Below are positions 4,589 through 54,282 of a DNA stretch of 54,553 nt, piece after piece. Position 1 is the first letter of the stretch; each line of letters opens with the position of its first letter. The stretch is from the NCBI GenBank assembly GCA_000310025.1, contig FN648521.1, forward strand, positions 34,243 to 88,795, written 5' to 3'. Origin of the DNA: Ectocarpus siliculosus (lineage: Eukaryota; Sar; Phaeophyceae; Ectocarpales; Ectocarpaceae). The translations under genes were made by a program, and so were the position numbers. The notes beneath the pieces are model-generated. The model had not been told where the DNA came from, did no database searches, and saw only the letters and a list, made by a program, of their open reading frames with translations.

Positions 4589-4684
4589 GCAAACGACGAC
4601 GACCTGAGCACAAACGCGATGGCCTTCATTGCCATCGTTATCGTCAACTTCGCTGCAGCCTTCGGGGGGGGATGGGAAAAAAAA
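4589..4684 (+). CDS. Candidate single-transmembrane exon
   Basis: This is a 96-nt phase-0 candidate exon. The acceptor is the CAG after a CCCC run and the donor is the weak AAA|GTGGAG. It encodes an acidic start (ANDDDLST), then a 17-20 residue hydrophobic helix (MAFIAIVIVNFAAAF), then GGGWEKK. The layout of acidic lead, hydrophobic helix, F-G-G and a Lys/Glu tail resembles the minus-strand segment at 48.8 kb. The protein is unidentified and the weak donor lowers confidence. Confidence 0.35.
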
Positions 4685-4734
4685 GTGGAGCCGAAAAATG
4701 GGGGTTTTCTTGACAAAACACCCAGCCTGGCGGT

Positions 4735-4940
4735 CCTTTCTGGGAGCCGCAGGACTGTAGTTGGACGTCACCCTGTCAACAAGAAATAGTAGGCTTGGCC
4801 GACAACGTCTCTTGTAACCAGAAAACGTACAACAGTAGATGGATGGACGCCACCTGTCAAGAAGAAATTGGCTTGGGGCGACAACCTCTCTTGAAACCGC
4901 AGAAATGTACAACAGTAGATGGATGGGCGTCGTCGGCCGA
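4735..4940. repeat. About 82-bp tandem repeat, 2.5 copies
   Basis: Units carrying acaacagtagatggatgg and gacaac-tctcttg-aacc recur at about 82-bp spacing (4826 and 4908), with a degenerate first copy near 4750. No coding role is seen. Confidence 0.7.
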
Positions 4941-7792: not shown

Positions 7793-9019
7793 CTTTCGAA
7801 CGAGAACCAGAGGACGAGCGCGCGATTGAAGGCGTGCAGTCTATCTGTAGACTATTAATTTAGTTTTTTTCCTGGTGACTACAGTAAAAGACAAAAGCTC
7901 CTCCTCGACGGCCTCGTCGTGGAGCGCGGGAACGCCAGGCCCCGAGAAAGTCGTTCTCTGCAATGACTGGCTGCGCGTCTGATGGGCACATGGCTCTCCG
8001 GCACCTGGGTACAACTTAGTTGACGTTGGCTATTTTGGCCGACTCGGTGTGGCGGAGACTATATTGTTACAGACAACCAAACTCCAGCCGGTTTTAGCGT
8101 AGGAGTAGCATCGGCAATTCCTTTTCCAGAAATTGTGCCGATGTATGTAGTAGCTGGCCCACGTCTGGAAAATACGGGATAAGACAAAAATAGAAAAAGT
8201 CTGGCATGAAAAGGGATGTCTTCCCTCGAAATATCGATACACCACGATGGCGTGATCACCACCTACAGTAAGTACCCCAGGTTTTATCTTTCTCTCTTCG
8301 ACATTCACGCTATTACCAAAGCACCTTTCTCACCCCTCGTCCTTGACTGCTCACTGCTTTGCTCCTCGTTCGATATTACTTTCCCGATCCCATGTAGTCC
8401 TGTTCCATGCATTTCTGAACCGTTCCTTTCTCTCATTGCTTTCCCCCCTCTATAGCGATATTTCCTTCTCGAGGGGTGTGCTCGAACTGGCCTTGTCGCC
8501 CCTCGTCTTTTGCTGCTCACTCCTAACAATTTCGAAATGAACTCATAGCTCCGCCCCTATCGAGACCTTCTTTCGGAGATATCTTCATATTCATGCTTTC
8601 ACACCCTCCTCAAATCAATCGATCTTTCTTCATTATCCACTCTTATCGTTGATCCGAAATGCCTCCCGTCACCCGCCTCTCGCCAACCTACCTACCACAC
8701 GTAGACTATCGAACCCATGATCTCGGTCGAGTGAAGTCGATCGAGAAAACGTTTGCATTTTGGAGGTGTGAGCGACGTGAGGGGGGCCCACTTTCGGGGT
8801 GACATCTTACTCTTGACGCAACTATACGTAGAAGATGTGTGTTCACGGAAACATGGTGTCGATCAGGCACACAGCTTCCCACCTACTATTTACATACATT
8901 CCCGGATCCCGACGATCACCAAACGTGTCTGGATTCAATACTGCGTCGTTCAACAACCTGGGAAAAATATCGGCACATGCTGTTCCTGCGACAACTGGAG
9001 TCAGTCGAAGCGTTGGTTG
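7793..9019. other. No supported gene
   Basis: 8280-8540 is pyrimidine-rich with repeated 'cccctcgtc...tgctcactgctt' phrases, suggesting a loose internal duplication. The rest holds only short frames with no recognisable domain. Confidence 0.35.
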
Positions 9020-9145
9020 CGTGCGAGGCGTTCTTGCCCGTCTACCAACTCGCAGTCGTAGTGGCAGCCGGGAAAGTCTTCGCAGGTTTCGCAGGTTCAG
9101 CAAACATGTTGGATAAAGCATACAATAGGGGAAGTTGGGTTAGCG
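9020..9145 (-). repeat. Inverted partner of the 1.7-kb repeat
   Basis: The reverse complement aligns with 1690-1796 (ctaacccaacttcccc, then ccaacatgttt). The peptide NPTSPIV is retained, but a gap of about 5 bases shifts the following ALSNMF part out of frame. If the locus was coding, this copy is broken. Confidence 0.45.
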
Positions 9146-10022: not shown

Positions 10023-10476
10023 CAATCTTCCACACTATTGACAGTTTTGCTAAACCATCCATGGGACACCCATGGGTTTCCCATGGTCACCCATGGGCAC
10101 TTCAAGGGTCGCCAATGGGTTACCCATGGGCGGCCCATGAAGTGCCCATGAAGTGCCCACCGTGGGCACTTCAACCTAGAACTTCGCCACATGCACATTA
10201 ACCTAGAACTTAGGCAACTGCACAACCTAGAACTTTGCCTCCAGCGCCAACCGGGTTTGGGGCTAGGGTTCCTTGTGGGTTTGGGTTTAGGGTCAGGGTC
10301 GGCGGTAGGGTTTTATTAGCTGCTATAGTGCCCATTCCAAAGCAGCTAATCTATTGTTTAGGAGTACACTGGTTCCGGATGGAAGGGCTCTCATTGGTCG
10401 CCCATGGGTTGCCCATGGGTCACTCATGGGCTGCCCATGGGCGTTTTAGAAGAGCTGTAGAAAGTGTGGGAGACCC
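10023..10476 (+). mobile_element. hAT-like non-autonomous element, CCCATGGG type, copy 1
   Basis: A 454-bp element with imperfect terminal inverted repeats. The left end reads caatcttccacactattgac; the right end, complemented, reads gggtctcccacactttctac. Flanking 8-mers cacaaacg (10015-10022) and tacaaacg (10477-10484) match at 7 of 8, an 8-bp target duplication as in hAT elements. Inside, both arms are packed with CCCATGGG palindromes. The middle has three tandem 'cctagaactt' units and a telomere-like gggtttgggtttaggg stretch. It has no transposase frame, so it would need one in trans. Confidence 0.75.
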
Positions 10477-11326: not shown

Positions 11327-11419
11327 CTGTTGTTGCAGCAGGCAGTCGTGAAGGTCGTGAGCTGCCTCGAGAAATGTTGGGTGGAGGGGACCCACGTCGT
11401 TGATGTAGTGCACGAGGTC
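11327..11419 (-). CDS. Helical module exon 2 (YLNDVG type)
   Basis: A 93-nt phase-0 exon of 31 codons. Acceptor GTGCAG lies above 11419; donor GTGGGG follows CAACAACAG at 11327. It encodes DLVHYINDVGPLHPTF and then a predicted helix ending HDCLLQQQ. This is the same module as the exons at 33.4, 35.3, 51.5, 52.3, 53.4 and 54.2 kb. A matching exon 1 lies 300 bp upstream at 11719-11778. The family is unknown to me. The pair reads like a TPR-like helix-turn-helix. Confidence 0.6.
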
Positions 11420-11718: not shown

Positions 11719-11778
11719 CCGAATCGCGTACTCCCACCGCCCCAAACGCTTGTAGTCCCGGGCCCTTTGGAGCAACGC
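11719..11778 (-). CDS. Helical module exon 1 (60 nt)
   Basis: Exactly 60 nt, phase 0, acceptor CCAG and donor GTATGT. It encodes ALLQRARDYKRLGRWEYAIR. It shares length, phase and the A-R-x-[HY]-K-x-L-G-x-W-E-x-A-I pattern with exons at 33.9, 51.8, 52.8 and 53.8 kb. The pattern looks like the first helix of a tetratricopeptide-like repeat, completed by exon 2. Confidence 0.65.
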
Positions 11779-12394: not shown

Positions 12395-12844
12395 GGGTCT
12401 CCCACACTTTCTACAGTTTTCCCAAATGACCCGTGGGACACCCATGGGCCTGTGGGCGGCCCATGGGCGACCCATGCGCGGCCCATGGGCAACCCATGGT
12501 TAGCCCATGGGCGGCCAATGAGAGGCCTTCAACCGAACCAGTGGACACCTAAAAACTAGATTATCTGCTTTGGAACGGGCTTTATAGCGGCAAATTACCC
12601 TAACGCAAACCGTAACCCTAACCCCAAGCCCACACGATACGTGCTACAGTAGGTTGGCGCTCGTGACTAAGTTCTAGGCTGATGTGAAGGTGGTCAATTT
12701 CTACTGTACATACATAGGTTGATAACCGGTGGCGAAATTCTAGGATGCAGTGCCCACGGTGGGCATTTGACGGGCCGCCGATATGGGATACCCATGGGTA
12801 TCCCACGGGCGGTTCAGCAAAACTGTCAGTAGTGTAGGAGATTG
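12395..12844 (-). mobile_element. hAT-like CCCATGGG element, copy 2 (inverted)
   Basis: 450 bp in opposite orientation to copy 1. The ends are gggtctcccacactttctac and, complemented, caatctcctacactactgac. Flanks cacttccc (12387-12394) and cactcccc (12845-12852) match at 7 of 8, again an 8-bp target duplication. CCCATGGG-rich arms flank a core with ccgtaaccctaacccc (telomere-like on the complement). It is diverged from copy 1 throughout, so the insertions are independent. Confidence 0.75.
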
Positions 12845-33438: not shown

Positions 33439-33576
33439 CTTTTTTCGCTCATCTTCGGTCGCGTTCTCCCTCCAATCCTCTTCCGACTTCTTCTGCTGGC
33501 AGTCGTGGAGCTCGGCACGTACGATGATGCACGTGTCCAAGTCTGCACCCTCGTCGTTGAGGTAGAGCCGGAATAG
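33439..33576 (-). CDS. Helical module exon 2
   Basis: 138 nt, 46 codons, phase 0. Acceptor ATACAG, donor AAG|GTGGAG. It encodes LFRLYLNDEGADLDTC, then ELHDCQQKK and an acidic/basic coil ending ERKK. It is a diverged member: HPT of the consensus is replaced. It pairs with exon 1 at 33897-33956. Confidence 0.6.
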
Positions 33577-33896: not shown

Positions 33897-33956
33897 CGTA
33901 ATCGCCAACTCCCACCGCCCACGCTTTCTGTGAATTCGCCCCTTCTGCAGAAGCTC
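33897..33956 (-). CDS. Helical module exon 1 (60 nt)
   Basis: 60 nt, phase 0, acceptor GACAG, donor GTGCGT. It encodes ELLQKGRIHRKRGRWELAIT. The core W-E-L-A-I is identical to the copy at 51.8 kb. The intron to exon 2 is 320 bp. Confidence 0.65.
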
Positions 33957-34154: not shown

Positions 34155-35040
34155 CAAGCAAAAACCCCCACAACTGGGAGTTTTGGCGTTTGTTTACCTG
34201 GCAGCTCATGGGCAGCCCACGGGCAGCCAATTGTGCGCTGCGCATGGGCAACACGTGGAATTGCCCAGGATGGACTGCCCGTTAGAGCAATCAATATTTG
34301 CCCAAAATGGCTGTCCACGATAGGTGCCCATCGGCTGTTGGTCGTGGGCATGTCGACGGGGTGCCGGTGTTGACCTTACCATATGGGAGGTGCCCATGGA
34401 TGGCGTACAGCCCGTCAAAGAAAGGTCTACATGTAAAGAAGATGTGGCCCTCTACTGGCCCGCTTGCCCTGTAAAAGCACGGTGCGCGAAGAAATCCACG
34501 CAGGCACTCATCCAGAAATCGGCGATCGATCGTGCTTGCACTTCTTCAGGTAAGCGATATCGGTGGTGAGAAACAATTTCAGACCCAACTCACATGTGGT
34601 GTAAAAACAATTTTCCTTGTGGGGGGGAAACGCTGACGGTGCTGACAAAAGAGGGGGGTGCAGCACTCACTATTGCTTAGTCGTGAAGAGAATGGGTTAG
34701 TGTGATAGGGACAGTGTTAGGGCGCCCCCGTGGTGGACTGCCCTGGGTTAGCATTGCAGTATGTCCATGATCGTGTCCTTTTGGGGGATGCCCCATAGTG
34801 GGCCGTGGGCAAAGTTGAGGTGAAACTTAGGCTCACGGTTGGCAGCCCATGGGAACTACCCATTGATGATGGTCGTTTCACTTTTGGGCGATCCATGGAA
34901 TACTAAATGTCCATGGGCATTTCGTGGGCGTTTCGTGTTCCATGGAGTGCCCATGGGCTGCCCATGGAATGCTCGCGGGCATTTCCGTCCGTCGGCAGTC
35001 CATGGAACAACAAACAAGACGTTTTGGCAACCAACCGCGA
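34155..35040. mobile_element. CCCATGGG-type element, degenerate copy
   Basis: It begins with ccccacaactgggagttttgg, like the left end of the copy at 44.9 kb. It has palindromic gcccatgggc-type arms at 34200-34400 and 34840-35010, with a 'gggttag' motif between (34692 and 34747). The right end is unclear and no target duplication was identified. It lies between module units at 33.4-34.0 kb and 35.3 kb, so it probably split them. Confidence 0.5.
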
Positions 35041-35297: not shown

Positions 35298-35453
35298 CTT
35301 CCTCCGTTTTTCCATGCGCGTTTTCTTTTTCTTCTCTTCTTCTCCTCTCCTCTCCTCTTCTTTTTTCTGTTGGCAGTATTTAAGCTCACGGGCCACCGTG
35401 AAGTGCCATTCTGGGTTGAAGACTCCCACTTGGTCGCGGTAGGCCTTGTATTG
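35298..35453 (-). CDS. Helical module exon 2
   Basis: 156 nt, 52 codons, phase 0. Acceptor CATGCAG, donor AAG|GTCGAA. It encodes QYKAYRDQVGVFNPEWH, then ELKYCQQKK and a long K/E/R coil ending KRRK. The donor context matches the exon at 52265. Flanking intron (gacagcaggac, then a CT-rich run) matches the 52.2-kb unit, so whole units were duplicated. Confidence 0.6.
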
Positions 35454-36270
35454 CTGCATGACATCGATCGGTCGGAGCGAGGGCACGGTTCGAGGGACCA
35501 GCGTAGTAACGATTTGTCTAATGAAGTCAATTGGAGAAGAGATAGGGTTGTGGGTGGGTGGGGGGTTGTTTGGGCGCCTGACACGCGTAGTTCGAAGGGT
35601 TCCACGCACTGTACCGGTTGCTCCTCCTGACTTTCGGCGTCAGTAGTCATTGCATGCGAATGAACAGAAATTTGCGCAGAAATTTGCGCAGAAGGTGGTA
35701 TGTCAAAATCTAAACTCGTTTTGGTTCTGGCCAGGATTCAGGTTGTGTTCTTAGAAAGCAATGCGTTATCCTTTGCCCGCGGAGCGGGATTCCCCTGCAA
35801 GGACTGAAAGTACACGACCATTCAATTTTTGGTAGTCGATCATCCCGAAAATAGACTTGCATGGGCCACGGGGAGGGTAATAATGATGGCGCAAGCAAGA
35901 GCGGTTTCCGTTTGTACTTCATGGAAATCGATCCAATTTCTATGGAAGTCGAGGGCTACATCGTCCGTCCATGGAAACCGACTGACCAGTCTAAAGTTGC
36001 CCTTTTCGAAGAAAACCCTCCATTGTAGCCACCGCCCCGGTGATAATCGCAGCTGCCATGGAGGCCTTGCTGAATGAATTCCATGCAAATCAACGAACGA
36101 ACCCATTTTCCATGGAAGAACAGTTAAGTTTGCTACTCCCATGGAGGGGCCATGAAACTCCGTACCTACAGTAGATATACGCCATACCCACGAGGCTTCC
36201 GTGATTCCCAACAACTTTCCTCCCGTGGAAGTCTCAACTGCGCCCTTCCATGGGGTTCTCACGACAACAT

Positions 36271-36694: not shown

Positions 36695-36800
36695 GTCGCG
36701 AAATACCACCTTCTTCCCAATCTCATGTGCTCCCGGGCCTTCGCCAATTTCCACCGTCCCAAACTCTTGTGCTCCCGGGCCTTGCACAGAGGAGGCATTA
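36695..36800 (-). pseudogene. Degenerate helical module exon 1 copies
   Basis: The minus strand reads CKAREHKSLGRWKLA followed by KAREHMRLGRRW: two tandem, partial copies of the 60-nt exon motif without the conserved length or donor. Probably a decayed module. Confidence 0.45.
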
Positions 36801-44154: not shown

Positions 44155-47113
44155 ATGGTGGGAAGCGAAACCTCTGCATTTATCGGTGTCATGACGGTCA
44201 TGGCATTGGTTCATGTATTCTCGTCACCAGCTCGGGATGGCACGGGAACTTTCGCAGATAGTTTCAAGGTGAGGGCAAGCCTGGTCTCCGCTTCCTACAT
44301 CTATCTCCATTTGACGGCCCAAGCCCGTTCCACGTCGGCATCCATACAAACCACATTGACTAACTATACTGCGAGGGCAAACCATGTACTGTACACTCTT
44401 TTGTGCACTATAGCCGTACCCAGGGAACGAGATATCCTCTTGGTTCAATTTCTCGGTCTAACATCAAGTAAAACAGAATTCGGTCGCCAAGTCTGAACAA
44501 AAACAACACTTCGAAGTATGTCAAAATTAGGTTGGTTGTTATTTCAGTATGACGTTGACGAGGTCTACGGTAACAGTCGCACTTACCTGTTCTTTGCCGC
44601 ATCGAATTGAAAACACATTCGGAACTCGACAGACAATTTCCCGGATCTGAACTCTGATTGGCTAACGTTTCTGCTTAAAACACACGCGCACGCCCAAAGC
44701 TCAACGAAACAAATCTCCAATCACCTCACACATGTACGTACGTCGATGTACTAACAGCGAAGCGTCGCTTACCAGGGCGCGGTGTTTCCCGATGCGACTG
44801 TACCTGCAGTCCAACTGATGTTATCGTAGAATGTATGTCCAGCCACGCTCGGCCTAAAGGGGGAAGGAGAACCAGTCGTTCTGGGGGGGTATGCATGACC
44901 CCCAATTTTCCGCACTACTGGGAGTTTTATCTAAAACCGCCCATGGGCAGCCCATGATCTGCCAACGAAGTGCCCGCCGTGGGCACTTCAACCAAGAGCT
45001 TAGCCACCGGCACGTCAACCTCGAACATACATCCACCCAGCGCCAACTTAGCACGAATCTATCGTGTGGGCTTGGGGACAGGGTTAGGGTGAGCGTTACG
45101 GATTTTTAGTCGTTATTCTGCCCTTCCAAAGCAAAGTCTACAGAATAGGAGTGCCCTGGTTACGGTAGGAGGGCACTCATTGACGGTCTATGAGCCGCCC
45201 ATGGGCAGCCCATGCGTTGCTCATGAACTGCCCACAAAGAGCCCACCATGGGCTGCCCATGGGCTTGCCCAGGGGCATTTCCCATGGTGGCCCGTGGGCA
45301 CCGTTGTGCCCACGGGCACTTTGTTTGGTGCCCATAAGCGGCCCGTGGGCTGCCCATGGGCTGCCCATGAGCAGAATGCTGTGCCCATGGGCAGTCCATG
45401 GGCAGCCCGTGGGCTGATAAACAAAACCGCCGAAGTGCAGGAGATCCTGCACGGCTGATAGTTTCCCGAGGGGCGCGTGGTTTGATTGACACCAACCTTG
45501 GGCAGGCATACTCCTGTCTGCGGGGTAAGTGGCTGCCGATGATCTTGTCAGTTTATCAATTTTCGCAGCAATAGAGGCCGGGAACACATATCCATTCCAC
45601 ACCGTCTCGTCAAACTCCGACGCCTGCACGAGAGCACTACTGTAGCTACCCCACGCTAACACGATATATAGTGTGCGTACCCCAACACGCTCATCACGAT
45701 TTAACGGGGATAGATTTGAAGTTGGAAAGGACAACGTATTTGATTGCAAGTGCGAACTGGAATGAAGAACCTCTACAGTTTCCTTCCAAAGGTTGCCCCA
45801 AAAGGAACCTGACACATGCCCAACCGTCGTTTGCTTGGCCGCGTAAACCGAATATACATGGTGGTGGAATGATGGGGGCGCGCGGCTTGCAAAAATAGGA
45901 ACCCTATGAGTATGCCACAACAAACGTTGGCTCCACGAAGCGCAGATTCATCCGACTCTTCGGGCGGGTGGTGTTCGTCTTGGTGATGTTCGGGACGTAC
46001 GTCGGACTCGAGTCTATGATTCGCTGGAAATCGTCGGCTTTCACGTCCAAGGTAAGGGCGCGTGCAAAACAAATCGTTCAGCACTGCGAACGGGATCGAG
46101 TTATTCGTACATATATTGTCATCCGAGAGTGAGGAGCAAAATCTGGCGCACTACTACTGCACTTAAGTGACACTCATGATTTTTGTCCATGTCGAAGATC
46201 ACGTGCGGCGTTTCGTACGTGGGCCATACAAAATATATCTTCGGCTTTGTGTGCTGCCATTGACGAACATGTCCGTCTCACATTCGATCCTTCTCTCTCT
46301 TGATCATTCTCCGCCACCTGCTGTACTTTGTTGTGTCGACGTCGTCGCTTTCGTCTTTCGGGTTTCCTGGCTTTCGGGTTATTTTCGTGAACATTGGCGT
46401 AGCCGGCTGCACCGCAAGCGAGGAAGAAAGCCGCCGAAGAACAAAGGGGCAGAGGGACGGGCGGATATGGCGACGCATACGGCAAAAGAGCTGAGGAAAG
46501 AGAGAGCGTCAAGATCGAGAAAGAGAAGAGGGAGGCCGTAGAAGAGAGATACGGAAAGGAGGGCGAGTACTACGACGCACACAGGAAAAGAGCGTTGGAA
46601 AACGAGAGGATCAGGATCGAGAAGGAGAAAAAGAAAGCAGCTGAAGAAGAGAGACGCAGGGTCGAGAAAGCGAAGCGGGAGGCTGCCGCTGAAGAAGACA
46701 GGCGCAGCATCGAGAAACAGAAGAGGGAGGTTGCAGCTGAAGAAGAGAGGATGAGGATCGAGAGAGAAAAGAAGAAAGCCATTGAAGTAGAGAGACGCAG
46801 GATCGAGCAAGCGAAGGGGGAGGCTGCCGCTGAAAAAGACCGGCGCAGGATCGAGCAAGCGGAGAGGGAGGCCGTCGCGGAAGAAGAGAGAGGCAGAATC
46901 GAGAAAGCAAAGAGGGAGAGCCCTCAAGAATCGAGACGCAGAAAACAGCTGGAAAATTACGAGACATACAAGAAAGCAGCCGAGGAAAAAGAGAGGATCA
47001 GGATCGAGAGAGAGAAGAGGGAGAGCCCTGAAGAAATGAGACGCAGAAAGGTGGACGAGTACTACGAAGCACGAAAGAGAACGGCTGCGGAAAAAGCGAA
47101 TGCGAAAGCGTAG
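44155..47113 (+). CDS. Membrane-anchored coiled-coil protein (three-exon model)
   Basis: Three phase-compatible exons. E1 44155-44268: ATG, 38 codons, donor AAG|GTGAGG, with a hydrophobic helix (AFIGVMTVMALVHVF). E2 45899-46051: acceptor ATAG, 51 codons, EPYEYATTNV then a helix (VVFVLVMFGTYVGL), donor AAG|GTAAGG. E3 46403-47113: 236 codons and TAG. E3 is almost entirely K/E/R/A coil with six to seven 15-16 residue repeats (RRRIEQAKGEAAAEKD type, about 48 nt each) and EYYDAHRKR-like blocks at both ends. A CCCATGGG element lies in intron 1. After TAG the same frame keeps coil-like sequence (KEATENESVSSEGDYFEAE) past a second stop, so the C-terminus may be truncated. Other exons may exist in the introns. 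The function is unknown. The large minus-strand frame across E3 is its shadow. Confidence 0.55.
44903..45447 (+). mobile_element. hAT-like CCCATGGG element, copy 3
   Basis: The left end caattttccgcactactggg matches copy 1's left end; the complemented right end ggatctcctgcacttcggcgg is its inverted partner. gcccatgggc palindromes fill the right arm (45190-45415). The core has gacagggttagggtgagcg. Target duplication is unclear (about 6 of 8 at best). It sits in an intron of the coiled-coil gene. Confidence 0.65.
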
Positions 47114-50346: not shown

Positions 50347-50460
50347 AGGAACCCTATGAGGTGGCCCTGCGACGCATGAAGTCGTCGTAGCGTCTGTTGT
50401 GTGCAAGGCGCTCTTCGTCATCCAATTTACGATTGTACTCGCGGCGTGTGCCCTGGTCCT
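50347..50460 (+). pseudogene. Frameshifted relative of the EPYE transmembrane exon
   Basis: The acceptor and first bases (acaggaaccctatgag) match the start of E2 at 45899 (ataggaaccctatgag). The EPYE frame hits a stop after 13 codons. A neighbouring frame then gives a hydrophobic helix (ALFVIQFTIVLAACALVL). A small indel between the two parts would explain this, so it is probably a broken paralogue. Confidence 0.4.
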
Positions 50461-51024
50461 TAAGTACCTACCGACAGCGGTAGAAAAAGGGCGAGAATGA
50501 GGGGGGTCCGGCCAAGCAGAAAGTTGTGTATCTACATAACCCAATAGTTCATTGCATATGGTATCAACAACTGTCGAACCGTGCTATCGTGGCCATACAG
50601 TCTAGAAGTCCTGTTAAGGAGCCTTATCGCAACCGCTGTTGAAAACCAAACATCTGCACCTGTTGCCCTCTGGAACGGCTGTCACCAACATCAACCTACT
50701 GTGGATGGCCGAAAGTGATGGGTAGTGTACATAGGGTCTCCACTATGGGGAACAATGCTGTATCGATTGGCGCGATTTGTAGGCGAGCTCGTGTTTTGTG
50801 CTTCGGTATTGCGATGTAAACAATAGACTATATTTTCTGTACAGTAGTCCCCCTGCATGATGTTGCTTCCGTTTCGTTTTGGTTGAGCAAAGTTGCTCTG
50901 TATCATACTTCTTCCACCCGACACAGACAAGATATGTTCCAAACGGGTTCTTCGTGGTAATCCAACGTGCTGGCGGTGTGAGTCTTGCCATGTTACCGCG
51001 CCTGCCGGTGGTTCATTTTCTCAC

Positions 51025-51129
51025 CTCATACGCTTCATTAATTGCCCGAAATTGGCGAGCGGCGTCTGAATTGCCTGGGTTTTTGTCGGGGTGGTGCCTG
51101 AGCGCCAACTTGCGGTAGGCTTCCTTGAT
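51025..51129 (-). CDS. DnaJ (J-domain) exon
   Basis: 105 nt, 35 codons, phase 0, acceptor CGCAG and donor GAG|GTGAGA. It encodes [20 protein letters not shown] then [10 protein letters not shown]: helix II, the invariant HPD loop and helix III of a J domain, the Hsp70-stimulating part of DnaJ-type co-chaperones. The N-terminal part (Y-x-x-L-G-V) was not found upstream. Downstream, at about 50890-50930, the minus strand has ILSVS in one frame and KKYDTE in another, which would fit the end of the domain if one base is missing. Flanking helical modules on the same strand could belong to the same gene. Confidence 0.75.
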
Positions 51130-51478
51130 CTGCGTGCCATCCCCGGACGCGAAAGGTGGCGAAAGAGAGGTTGGAAGACCATGGCAGGAGACTGAGAGGC
51201 GCGCGGGGAGATCGGATGAGTCTCATCATGTTAGACTACCTCTATCTTACAACGGGCCCAGAACATGCACTCGTATGTTTCGGGAAAGTAAAATACGTCC
51301 ATTTAGCAGGACTCGTGCTCGCGTTCACCTTATTTCGTGGGGCGTTGGACCTGACCCAAAGGGTCGCGTAATGCCCCCCTCCGCTCCCTTCTGCCCTGAC
51401 GGCCTCTTCCTGGGCGGCCTCGTCCGCGGCTTTCCTCCTCCTATCTTCGGCCTTCCGTTCCTCTTCGGCCGCTCGAAC

Positions 51479-51574
51479 CTTGGCTTGTTCCTGTCTGCAG
51501 TAGTCGAGCTCTTGAGCTACCTCGACCGACGTTGGGTGGCCATCACCAACATCGTTCAGGTACTTCAGGTAGTG
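51479..51574 (-). CDS. Helical module exon 2
   Basis: 96 nt, 32 codons, phase 0 (acceptor GCGCAG, donor AAG|GTTCGA). It encodes HYLKYLNDVGDGHPTSVEV then ELDYCRQEQAK. The open frame continues as an acidic coil past the proposed donor, so a longer exon is possible. Confidence 0.6.
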
Positions 51575-51816
51575 CTGCGCGAACTCGGTCGGATCAAGTG
51601 CATAGTTCGAGGGAAACACCGAAGATTGAAAAAACATTGCTGTCGTACTTCCCCGACGTCGGCGGTGTAGTCAAAATGGTGTGAGGATTTACAGATTTCT
51701 CTCCCGGCGCATGCTACGCATGACCATCGTGTCTGTGCGTTGCCATGACGGTGCTAGATAGAGTAGTGCACGAGCAACGCCTTCCAGCATGTGCTAGAAA
51801 GGCGTTTCGCACGTAC

Positions 51817-51876
51817 CGTAATCGCCAACTCCCACTGCTCCGAGGACTTGTGGCTCCGTGCCTTTCGGAGTAGTTC
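51817..51876 (-). CDS. Helical module exon 1 (60 nt)
   Basis: 60 nt, phase 0, acceptor TCCAG, donor GTACGT. It encodes ELLRKARSHKSSEQWELAIT. It lies exactly 1000 bp below the next copy. Confidence 0.7.
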
Positions 51877-52264
51877 CTGGAGAGCAGTGCGTGTTGTTTC
51901 GCGAGAGAACAAACGACGGGCACTCGCATTATGATCGAAACAGATTTAGCGCCAAATTCCGTGCTTCTTCAAGACCTCTCCTTTTCTCTCTCTCTCGCTC
52001 GCTCGTCCAGGGACTCAGCCTGCTTGCGCCGCTCTGGAAGCAAACCACGGGACTTATGAGCAATCCCCAACCGGAGCCGCAGTTGGCCGAAGTATCGAAC
52101 ATGTTGGTCCAACGATGCATGCGACATCTCTCAAATCAACAGCCGCCTAGACTATGTGCCTAGTACAAAAGCTGATCACAATGCGATTGGTTTCAACAGC
52201 AGGATCTCTTACGCTCAACCTTAATTTAACCTCTCATTTCCACCTTTCTTTTCTCGTCTTCGAC

Positions 52265-52396
52265 CTTCTTCCGCTTCTCTTCTGCCGCTTTCACTCTCTT
52301 CTCTTCTACTTTCTGGCGGCACTCGTCGAGCTCATCAGCTACCTCGTGCCATGTTGGGTGGCGGACACCCACGTCGTTGAGGTACCTCTGGTAGTC
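52265..52396 (-). CDS. Helical module exon 2
   Basis: 132 nt, 44 codons, phase 0 (acceptor ATGCAG, donor AAG|GTCGAA). It encodes DYQRYLNDVGVRHPTWHEV then ELDECRQKVEEKR and a coil ending EKRKK. It is closest to the family consensus. Confidence 0.65.
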
Positions 52397-52816
52397 CTGC
52401 ATGGGGCGAGGGCACAGTTCGAGGGAAGATTTATTACGGTCTAATGTTGCTGCGGGAAGACAGTGCTGAACTCTTCTCGCATTAAAAATCGAAGGCAAAG
52501 TACCGCAGAGGGGAGGGTAGAGAGGGGTATTTTTGTGTGACCACGGGTTGGAGTAAACGGCACTAGTGCTGTGAGCGCTCATTTGAAGTGAAGAAAAAAA
52601 AAATGATGCTGCACTTCCGAGGTCGGTGTGACACTTTTTTGAGTCTAAACGCAGTTTCCATTGAGTCGAATGGGGTGCGATACTGATGTAGATGTCGGCG
52701 AAACTGTGAAGAAAACGATGTGCCTCGACGAGAAACTGCACGCACACACGTGCGGGTTGATAGCGCACGACCAACGTAATGTGGCGCACGAGAAGAAGGG
52801 GCTACGTTGAACGCAC

Positions 52817-52876
52817 CGCAATCGCCGACTCCCACTGCTCCAAGCACTTGTGGTTCCGGGCCGTTCGCAGCAACTC
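52817..52876 (-). CDS. Helical module exon 1 (60 nt)
   Basis: 60 nt, phase 0, acceptor TCCAG, donor GTGCGT. It encodes ELLRTARNHKCLEQWESAIA. Confidence 0.7.
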
Positions 52877-53315
52877 CTGGAGAGCAGTAACGCGTGTTTG
52901 ACGACGTAACGAAATACAGTATACAGGCTACATATCAAGGGAAGTCGAGGTAGTATATCAACGCTCACATGGTCGAACTAAGTGAAACGTCAACAATCAC
53001 ACCTTCAAGGGTCCCCCCCTCTCAATCTCGCTCTCCATGCGTTTGGGTCGGTCTTCATCTTGTCATCTGTCCGACCCGCTCCTCACCCAGGAACCCATAA
53101 TTGCCCTTGCCCCACTACATCTGGAGGGATTTTTCAAGACTTGTTGGCAACTCTCACACGGAGCCTTCCATGCATATAATAGATGTCCGTTCAAGCTAGC
53201 TGTCAAACAGGGTTTACGTATCGCTGAACTCGTTTCAAAGCCCAATCAATTCTGGAAATGATATTGGCTTCTACAGCACGATATTCTACGTTCACACAAT
53301 CAATATTGCCGCCAC

Positions 53316-53453
53316 CTTCTTCCGGTTCTCGTCGGCCGCTTTCGCCTTCTCTTCCTTTGCTTTCAACTCCCGTCGGCAATGGCGGAGCTCTTCTGATACC
53401 TCGCACGATGTTTTGTGGCACAAACCCACGTTGCTGAGGTAACGGCGGAAGTC
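53316..53453 (-). CDS. Helical module exon 2
   Basis: 138 nt, 46 codons, phase 0 (acceptor TTGCAG, donor AAG|GTGGCG). It encodes DFRRYLSNVGLCHKTSCEV then ELRHCRRELKAKEEK and a coil ending ENRKK. Confidence 0.65.
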
Positions 53454-53757
53454 CTGCAAGAATTCGGTCGGATAGACGTCGTATTTTCGAGCGACCAGAC
53501 TGTTGCCTCTTGTTTCTTCTCTTCGTCGGCGTGGTACTATGACTGTGCCGGCGACCAGCGCACGCTACGCAGAGCCTCATCCTGGGTGTGCTGGGTGGAT
53601 TGGTGGTTTCCGTGGAAATGGGACTGTATTGAAAGGAATGAGGCGCGGCACAGATGTCGGAACTTTGGGTAAAAGTGTTCCTACAGTGAAACTGCGCATG
53701 CGTGCATTGCTAACAGCGAGCAACGTGTTCACACACGCCAACGTGAGTGGTACGTAC

Positions 53758-53817
53758 CTCAATCGCCAGCTCCCATTCTTGCAAACGCACATGGTTCTGT
53801 GCCTTCTTTCGCAAGGC
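53758..53817 (-). CDS. Helical module exon 1 (60 nt)
   Basis: 60 nt, phase 0, acceptor AACAG, donor GTACGTA. It encodes ALRKKAQNHVRLQEWELAIE. Confidence 0.7.
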
Positions 53818-53964
53818 CTGTTGAGCAATGCGAGTTCGACGACAGCACGAACATCCAGGGAATACTACAGTATCAGTTGTCACATGATGATCGAAACAAA
53901 GATCCCCTTCGATTGTGGTTTTATTCTCGTAGGCCATATTTCCTAATAGCACCGCCAGCACTTG

Positions 53965-54015
53965 GTCTCCCTCTCTCCCTCTCTCGCTCTCTCGCTCTCT
54001 CTCTCTCTCCCTATC
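53965..54015. repeat. CT-rich microsatellite
   Basis: CTCTCTC/CTCGCTCT run. Similar CT-rich runs stand at the same relative place in the units at 51.98 and 34.09 kb, so it is part of the duplicated unit. Confidence 0.85.
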
Positions 54016-54183
54016 TCTCCACCCCTCAATCGGTTGCTCCCCGCTGCCCTCTGGAGCATTCTCTTTTTCTCTATCCCACCGAGGCGCACGGCCTGCTCGC
54101 GCCCCACTCTCCTTGGGAGAATGCAACAAGACTTGTCGGCGGCTTCAACACATCTCCTACTAACCCCCGCCAGGCCAAGGTAC

Positions 54184-54282
54184 CTTCCACATCGGCTCCC
54201 GTCGGCAGCGTTCAAGCTCGTCTGCCACCTCGTCCCATTTCGGGTGGACGACGCCCACTTCGTCCATGTAGCTCTGGAAATA
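54184..54282 (-). CDS. Helical module exon 2 (array edge)
   Basis: 99 nt, 33 codons, phase 0 (acceptor ATGCAG, donor AAG|GTACCT). It encodes YFQSYMDEVGVVHPKWDEV then ELERCRREPMWK. Its partner exon 1 would lie beyond the window edge, so the array probably continues. Confidence 0.65.

Follow-up and report, generated by a model that had tools for sequence, protein, structure and literature searches.

DNAJC3 (P58IPK; 2y4t) joins many upstream TPRs to a helical neck and a C-terminal J-domain. DNAJC7 (TPR2) also combines TPR domains with a J-domain and, in the available text of PMC9025444, bridges Hsp90 through the former and Hsp70 through the latter. Repeat exons are multiplied in genes of other kinds in brown algae. 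The accessible part of PMC11378527 describes ROCO genes with LRR exons of 72 bp and phase 2 that are shuffled and alternatively spliced, and NB-ARC-TPR genes whose TPR exons are multiplied in tandem (Teng 2023 and Zambounis 2012, as cited there).

We analyzed a window of 54,553 nt from Ectocarpus siliculosus (C96:34243–88795), searching the genome as a 189-Mb assembly of 492 contigs. The window holds an array of alternating short exons that is real and coding-like. Judged from sequence, it is probably the 3′ part of a working gene for a TPR and J-domain co-chaperone of the DNAJC3/DNAJC7 type that carries its last TPR exon pair in several tandem copies. The rival readings discussed below overlap in part.

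The array lies on the minus strand and runs from 54282 downwards in the order B4, A3, B3, A2, B2, A1, B1+J1, J2, J3 and stop (Table 1). A exons (n = 3) of 60 nt alternate with longer B exons (n = 4) of 99–138 nt, the last of which is fused to J1 and measures 246 nt, which makes three full A-B pairs, with B4 left lacking a visible A. Exon lengths are divisible by three throughout, both for the eight that precede a donor and for J3 counted with its stop codon. With AG before and GT after each internal border, the visible introns are all phase 0. An earlier note on this DNA had listed seven of these exons without their strand, together with the 60-nt length of the A exons, GT/AG borders and uniform phase 0, and each of these details was found again. 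Its B exon starting at 51574 was taken to end at 51479; the frame can continue to 51329, encoding the start of a J-domain that the note had missed, and after splicing to J2 and J3 ends at the stop at 50356–50354.

Table 1. Exons of the array and related copies (window coordinates; SEQ tokens stand for sequence)
Feature	Position	Strand	Evidence
B4, B exon without visible A partner, 99 nt, YFQSYMDEVGVVHPKWDEVADELERCRREPMWK	54184..54282	-	HMM match, splice borders
A3, TPR helix A, 60-nt exon	53758..53817	-	HMM match, borders
B3, TPR helix B and charged coil; 3′ border uncertain, GTGGCG donor	53316..53453	-	HMM match, borders
A2, 60-nt exon	52817..52876	-	HMM match, borders
B2, TPR helix B and charged coil	52265..52396	-	HMM match, borders; fold of frame 52396-52229
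A1, 60-nt exon	51817..51876	-	HMM match, borders
B1+J1, TPR helix B, charged coil, GSGGG, J-domain start HYATLWVRSNAPRNK	51329..51574	-	HMM match, borders
J2, J-domain helices II-III, HPD	51025..51129	-	DnaJ profile match, borders
J3, J-domain end, C-terminal tail, stop codon TAG	50354..50467	-	Spliced frame; starts VLKDQGTRREYN
Degenerate A-like sequence (20.3 bits) in an outlying pair, lacking its start and repeated in part	36742..36783	-	HMM scan
B exon core, partner of the degenerate A	35364..35453	-	HMM scan
Outlying 60-nt A exon, AG/GT borders	33897..33956	-	HMM scan
Outlying B exon core (33-kb pair)	33490..33576	-	HMM scan
Outlying 60-nt A exon, AG/GT borders	11719..11778	-	HMM scan
Outlying B exon core (11-kb pair)	11333..11419	-	HMM scan
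Frame-broken J3 remnant	8985..9048	-	Score 46 vs best of 100 shuffles 28; HMM E 0.012

Random stretches of the contig were open over 20 codons in 57% of cases and over 29 codons in 44%, so open frames alone are weak evidence. Profile HMMs scored the array at 38–46 bits for A exons and 57–68 bits for B exons, partly by construction as these copies were seeds; in ten reversed or shuffled versions of the 124 kb, no decoy exceeded 14.1 bits (A) or 8.6 bits (B). The profile search proposed in the earlier note, run on this genome with only the three array units and a relative on contig C347 as seeds, picked up four B exons that were not among the seeds, namely B4 and the exons at 35.4, 33.6 and 11.4 kb (domain E-values 3.8e-10 to 6.3e-6). 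The pairs are homologous.

Donor sites were less uniform. Those of the A exons read GTACGT, GTGCGT and GTACGT, and those of B4, B3 and B2 read GTACCT, GTGGCG and either GTCGAA or, 21 nt on, GTGGAA, leaving the 3′ border of B2 uncertain. Judged by eye, the B4, B3 and B2 donors look weaker than the A donors. This would fit a relic array, in which only the last A-B pair and the J-domain work, or nothing does, and the upstream pairs are skipped or untranscribed leftovers of partial duplication. We regard such a relic as the less likely reading, though one with a real chance of being right. A CCGACCGAAT-like stretch lies within the last ~20 intron bases, before the AG, of 6/7 B exons (54282, 53453, 51574, 35453, 33576 and 11419); it is absent from B2 and from the C347 relative, and may represent a branch site or reflect shared ancestry.

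Spliced at their phase-0 borders, J1, J2 and J3 give an intact frame that matches Pfam DnaJ (PF00226) over positions 2–63 of 63 with 81.0 bits (E 6.7e-23; cut-off 27.8); the J2 piece alone reaches 57.4 bits. A complete J-domain with HPD in J2 places the product among the J-domain proteins (DnaJ/Hsp40), despite LWV instead of LG[VI]. This glycine to tryptophan change, at 51361–51353 in J1, is a second feature in keeping with a relic; the C347 relative (LGI) and both solved J-domains compared keep the glycine. PF00226 had 48 matches genome-wide, one on C96 and one on C347. A PDB search with the 304-residue array protein placed all 50 best stretches in the J-domain region.

The TPR reading of the A-B unit draws on the C347 relative, a divergent single-copy gene with the order TPR, one A-B pair, J-domain. 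Its TPR_1 match (37.7 bits; cut-off 27.8) stands directly before the A-B pair, which is followed directly by the J-domain. The joined C347 query aligned with STIP1 (6–131) and CNS1 (4–134), with the A-B positions 69–132 inside the TPR part of these matches, and with DNAJC3 (2y4t) over 50–180, from TPR through J, at E 6.2e-12. Among the 37 PDB matches listed for this query, DNAJC3 alone had a best stretch spanning both TPR and J. Because the C347 pair sits between a TPR match above cut-off and a J-domain, and because its A-B positions align with STIP1, CNS1 and DNAJC3, we read A-B as a TPR. The A exon of C347, judged from the sequence, measures 90 nt instead of 60, and its upstream donor would be GC.

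The order A-B then J is also present in the array gene, and the array runs in frame and phase into its J-domain. Its A-B pairs themselves fall below every curated TPR cut-off (23.5 vs 26.3 bits, TPR_6), and the scanned pairs outside the array do so too, at 18.1 vs 27.9 and 18.7 vs 35 bits. Other sub-threshold Pfam matches of the array, such as Peptidase_C7 (21.0 vs 27 bits), were taken as chance. AlphaFold2 predicted for B2 a helix (2–9), a turn and a second helix (16–55), with mean pLDDT 87.1 and pTM 0.50; the seven B sequences of the window were supplied alongside, and the model covers B alone. Given the C347 order, the most fitting reading of the array is that it repeats the last TPR and charged neck helix of a DNAJC3/DNAJC7-type co-chaperone. 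The motif had previously gone unrecognized; its description as a tandem, two-exon, phase-0, TPR-like helical unit, in which an intron splits the TPR and a charged coil follows, is supported. Weak B donors, LWV, pairs below the TPR cut-offs, an array protein that matches J-domains only and the 90-nt A exon of C347 all count against the co-chaperone reading.

Exons are conserved beyond introns. Within the array, DNA identity was 0.58–0.82 for A and 0.62–0.77 for B exons, and blastn matches were centered on exons, a few extending roughly 40–80 nt into introns. Among 21 comparisons of A-to-B introns, which include the upstream flank of B4 and C347, five were matched by no more than 1 of 200 shuffles when 12 nt were trimmed at the 5′ end, and four when 60 nt were also trimmed at the 3′ end. 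B-to-A introns exceeded shuffles in 2/3 comparisons, with the same outcome when GA runs were masked; none of the comparisons with C347 did so. GA runs (sense strand) precede A3 and A1 only, with none of ≥16 nt before A2. Repetition of flanking intron sequence, claimed earlier together with CT runs as a sign of whole-unit duplication, is weak. With only local intron similarity left, the pairs appear to be old duplicates with drifted introns.

Nei-Gojobori style proportions were calculated over 49 codons per pair, leaving out B4 as it lacks an A; the comparisons are short and non-independent. Array pairs gave pN 0.26 and pS 0.46 (pN ≥ pS in 13/2000 bootstraps), array against C347 pN 0.32 and pS 0.63 (0/2000), and J2 against its C347 counterpart pN 0.26 and pS 0.74 (0/2000). 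Single array comparisons were less firm, with pN ≥ pS in 72/1000 (unit 3 vs unit 2) and 46/1000 (unit 2 vs unit 1) bootstraps. Outlying pairs against the array gave pN 0.36 and pS 0.45 (119/2000), and array unit 2 against the 11-kb pair gave pN 0.28, above pS 0.20. These values speak for past selection on the array and, on the outlying pairs, for selection that was weaker or absent. The array ratio argues against a relic, as do A exons that have retained their length of 60 nt, their frame and the splice dinucleotides on either side despite intron drift; the outlying ratio can be set on the other side.

The HMM scan of C96:4243–128499 (124,257 of the 178,311 bases of the contig) yielded seven B exons, six A exons (five intact, one degenerate) and one J-domain, with all exon copies on the minus strand. 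All five intact A exons measure 60 nt with AG/GT borders. Of the 12 matches to a consensus query run across the genome, nine fell on C96 (seven were B and two A) and two on C347, and the remaining one, on C4, was at chance level (E 1.2); these counts are lower bounds, as single 20-codon exons are easily missed. A second J-domain was sought downstream of the 11-kb and 33-kb pairs and of J3, and only the J3 remnant downstream of the 11-kb pair, which carries frame-breaking gaps, was clear. A J2-like stretch there (28 vs a maximum of 25 in 100 shuffles; short and gapped) was taken as chance, and seven other J-exon searches stayed at or below their shuffle maxima. The outlying pairs and the broken J3 indicate that the 3′ part of the gene was duplicated more than once and that at least one copy decayed. 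The pairs at 33–37 kb and 11 kb would then be older or decaying copies in a cluster undergoing birth and death. The broken J3 and the degenerate A within this cluster are again what a relic array would lead one to expect.

Upstream of B4, just past the window end, lies a run of 1228 N (54554–55781), possibly a gap. The DNA before B4 can be aligned to the intron between A and B in the 33-kb pair (0/200 shuffles as good), and a fourth A exon may therefore be hidden in the run of N. The canonical TPR exon of C347 had no counterpart in C96:4243–128499 (best E 0.42), a search limited by the 1228 N just upstream of the array. Beyond the gap a 220-nt sequence occurs twice in direct orientation, the copies being 99% alike and 1942 nt apart (56908–57127 and 58850–59069 on the window scale; L007:2651–2870 and 4593–4812). 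They look like LTRs, perhaps of a young, short element. Nearby we read by eye a YVDD motif, presumably of a reverse transcriptase. An LTR pair so close upstream could accompany a relic array. It could also hint that the A-B units are non-coding parts of a transposon, the outcome that the earlier note had named as fatal to its case; the pair lies 2.4–4.8 kb past the end of the window. The gap separates this element from the array, however, and among the 12 genome matches, apart from the chance one on C4, the A-B pairs occur, in few copies, on C96 and C347 only, forming no interspersed family. Unless copies were heavily undercounted, these numbers refute a transposon origin, whose probability we consider negligible.

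Several other features were noted in the neighborhood. A 229-nt repeat occurs in three tandem copies, 76–100% alike, at L007:7706–8396. An open frame of 236 aa at 46403–47113 (plus strand), close downstream of the array gene and on the opposite strand, consists largely of charged EERRRIEKAKREAAAE-type repeats. CCATGG occurs 52 times in the window against 8–24 in ten dinucleotide-block shuffles, with clusters at 10059–10124, 12442–12505, 34847–35000, 35969–36248 and 45199–45396; in translation these resemble MGSPWAAHG runs and are perhaps one dispersed repeat family. A non-coding RNA reading was rejected, with no Rfam match at gathering score in the window. The EsV-1-7 domain is expanded in brown algae, and PF19114 gave 150 scored matches among 880 candidates in this genome and none in 14 control genomes, in keeping with a brown alga.

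The earlier note compared the array with symmetric-phase repeat exons in expanding brown-algal receptor genes (LRR and TPR families). Such exons with a TPR-like motif in a brown alga could suggest an exon-shuffled immune receptor of NB-ARC-TPR or ROCO type. The frame ends in a J-domain, and none of the 27 NB-ARC matches in the genome is on C96, a count limited by the upstream gap. ROCO repeat exons, as far as the accessible text of PMC11378527 goes, are 72 bp in phase 2, against 60 nt plus about 100–140 nt in phase 0 here; no A exon, B exon or fused last exon of the array has the ROCO form. We therefore set aside a receptor gene as very unlikely.

In the co-chaperone gene that we favor, exon A would encode TPR helix A, and exon B helix B, a turn and a long charged helix, which in the single-copy relative leads from the TPRs towards the J-domain. 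Unequal exchange between introns is a plausible mode of duplication; as borders are phase 0 at every junction, a whole A-B pair can be added without breaking the frame. The predicted protein strings together TPR hairpins, each bearing a charged helical neck, and closes with a J-domain, which would stimulate Hsp70. The repeats may lengthen the neck or offer several docking sites. We infer that all pairs are spliced together and that the gene is expressed.

Alternatively, A-B pairs could be spliced in singly or in varying number, yielding J-proteins with different TPR necks. Any choice would keep the frame as all junctions are phase 0, the C347 relative has one pair, and tandem repeat exons are alternatively spliced in the brown-algal ROCO genes of PMC11378527, as far as its available text describes them. 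We consider such alternative cassettes rather unlikely. Slightly less likely again is that these cassettes are splice-selectable necks, through which one locus would supply a family of J-proteins holding the Hsp70-activating domain at different distances or with different partners. If true, an exon-cassette strategy seen in brown-algal receptors would also serve the chaperone system.

If instead the pairs are spliced together, as in our preferred reading, brown algae multiply phase-0 repeat exons in a chaperone helper as well as in candidate immune receptors. The trait would then be a habit of the genome rather than a sign of immunity, and the locus would serve as a natural experiment on the neck that links the TPRs to the J-domain. 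Among open papers, judged by title or abstract, we found no earlier report of repeated TPR exons in a J-domain gene.

Among the described systems, ROCO genes share with the array one repeat unit per exon set, constant phase and tandem multiplication; in the part of PMC11378527 available, their units are LRR exons in GTPase receptors, whereas the array multiplies an exon pair in a J-domain gene. NB-ARC-TPR genes, as outlined in the same source, also have tandem-multiplied TPR exons; the array differs in having no NB-ARC match on its contig, a unit split over two exons and a J-domain end. DNAJC7 resembles the array gene in joining TPR and J. Its two complete TPR domains are not seen in the array gene, and the repeated neck units of the array do not appear in the available description of DNAJC7 (PMC9025444). 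DNAJC3 shares the order of TPR repeats, helical neck and C-terminal J-domain, and the C347 relative aligns with it across both domains. The many upstream TPRs of DNAJC3 are not seen adjoining the array; in the array gene, the last TPR and its neck are instead repeated at least three times.
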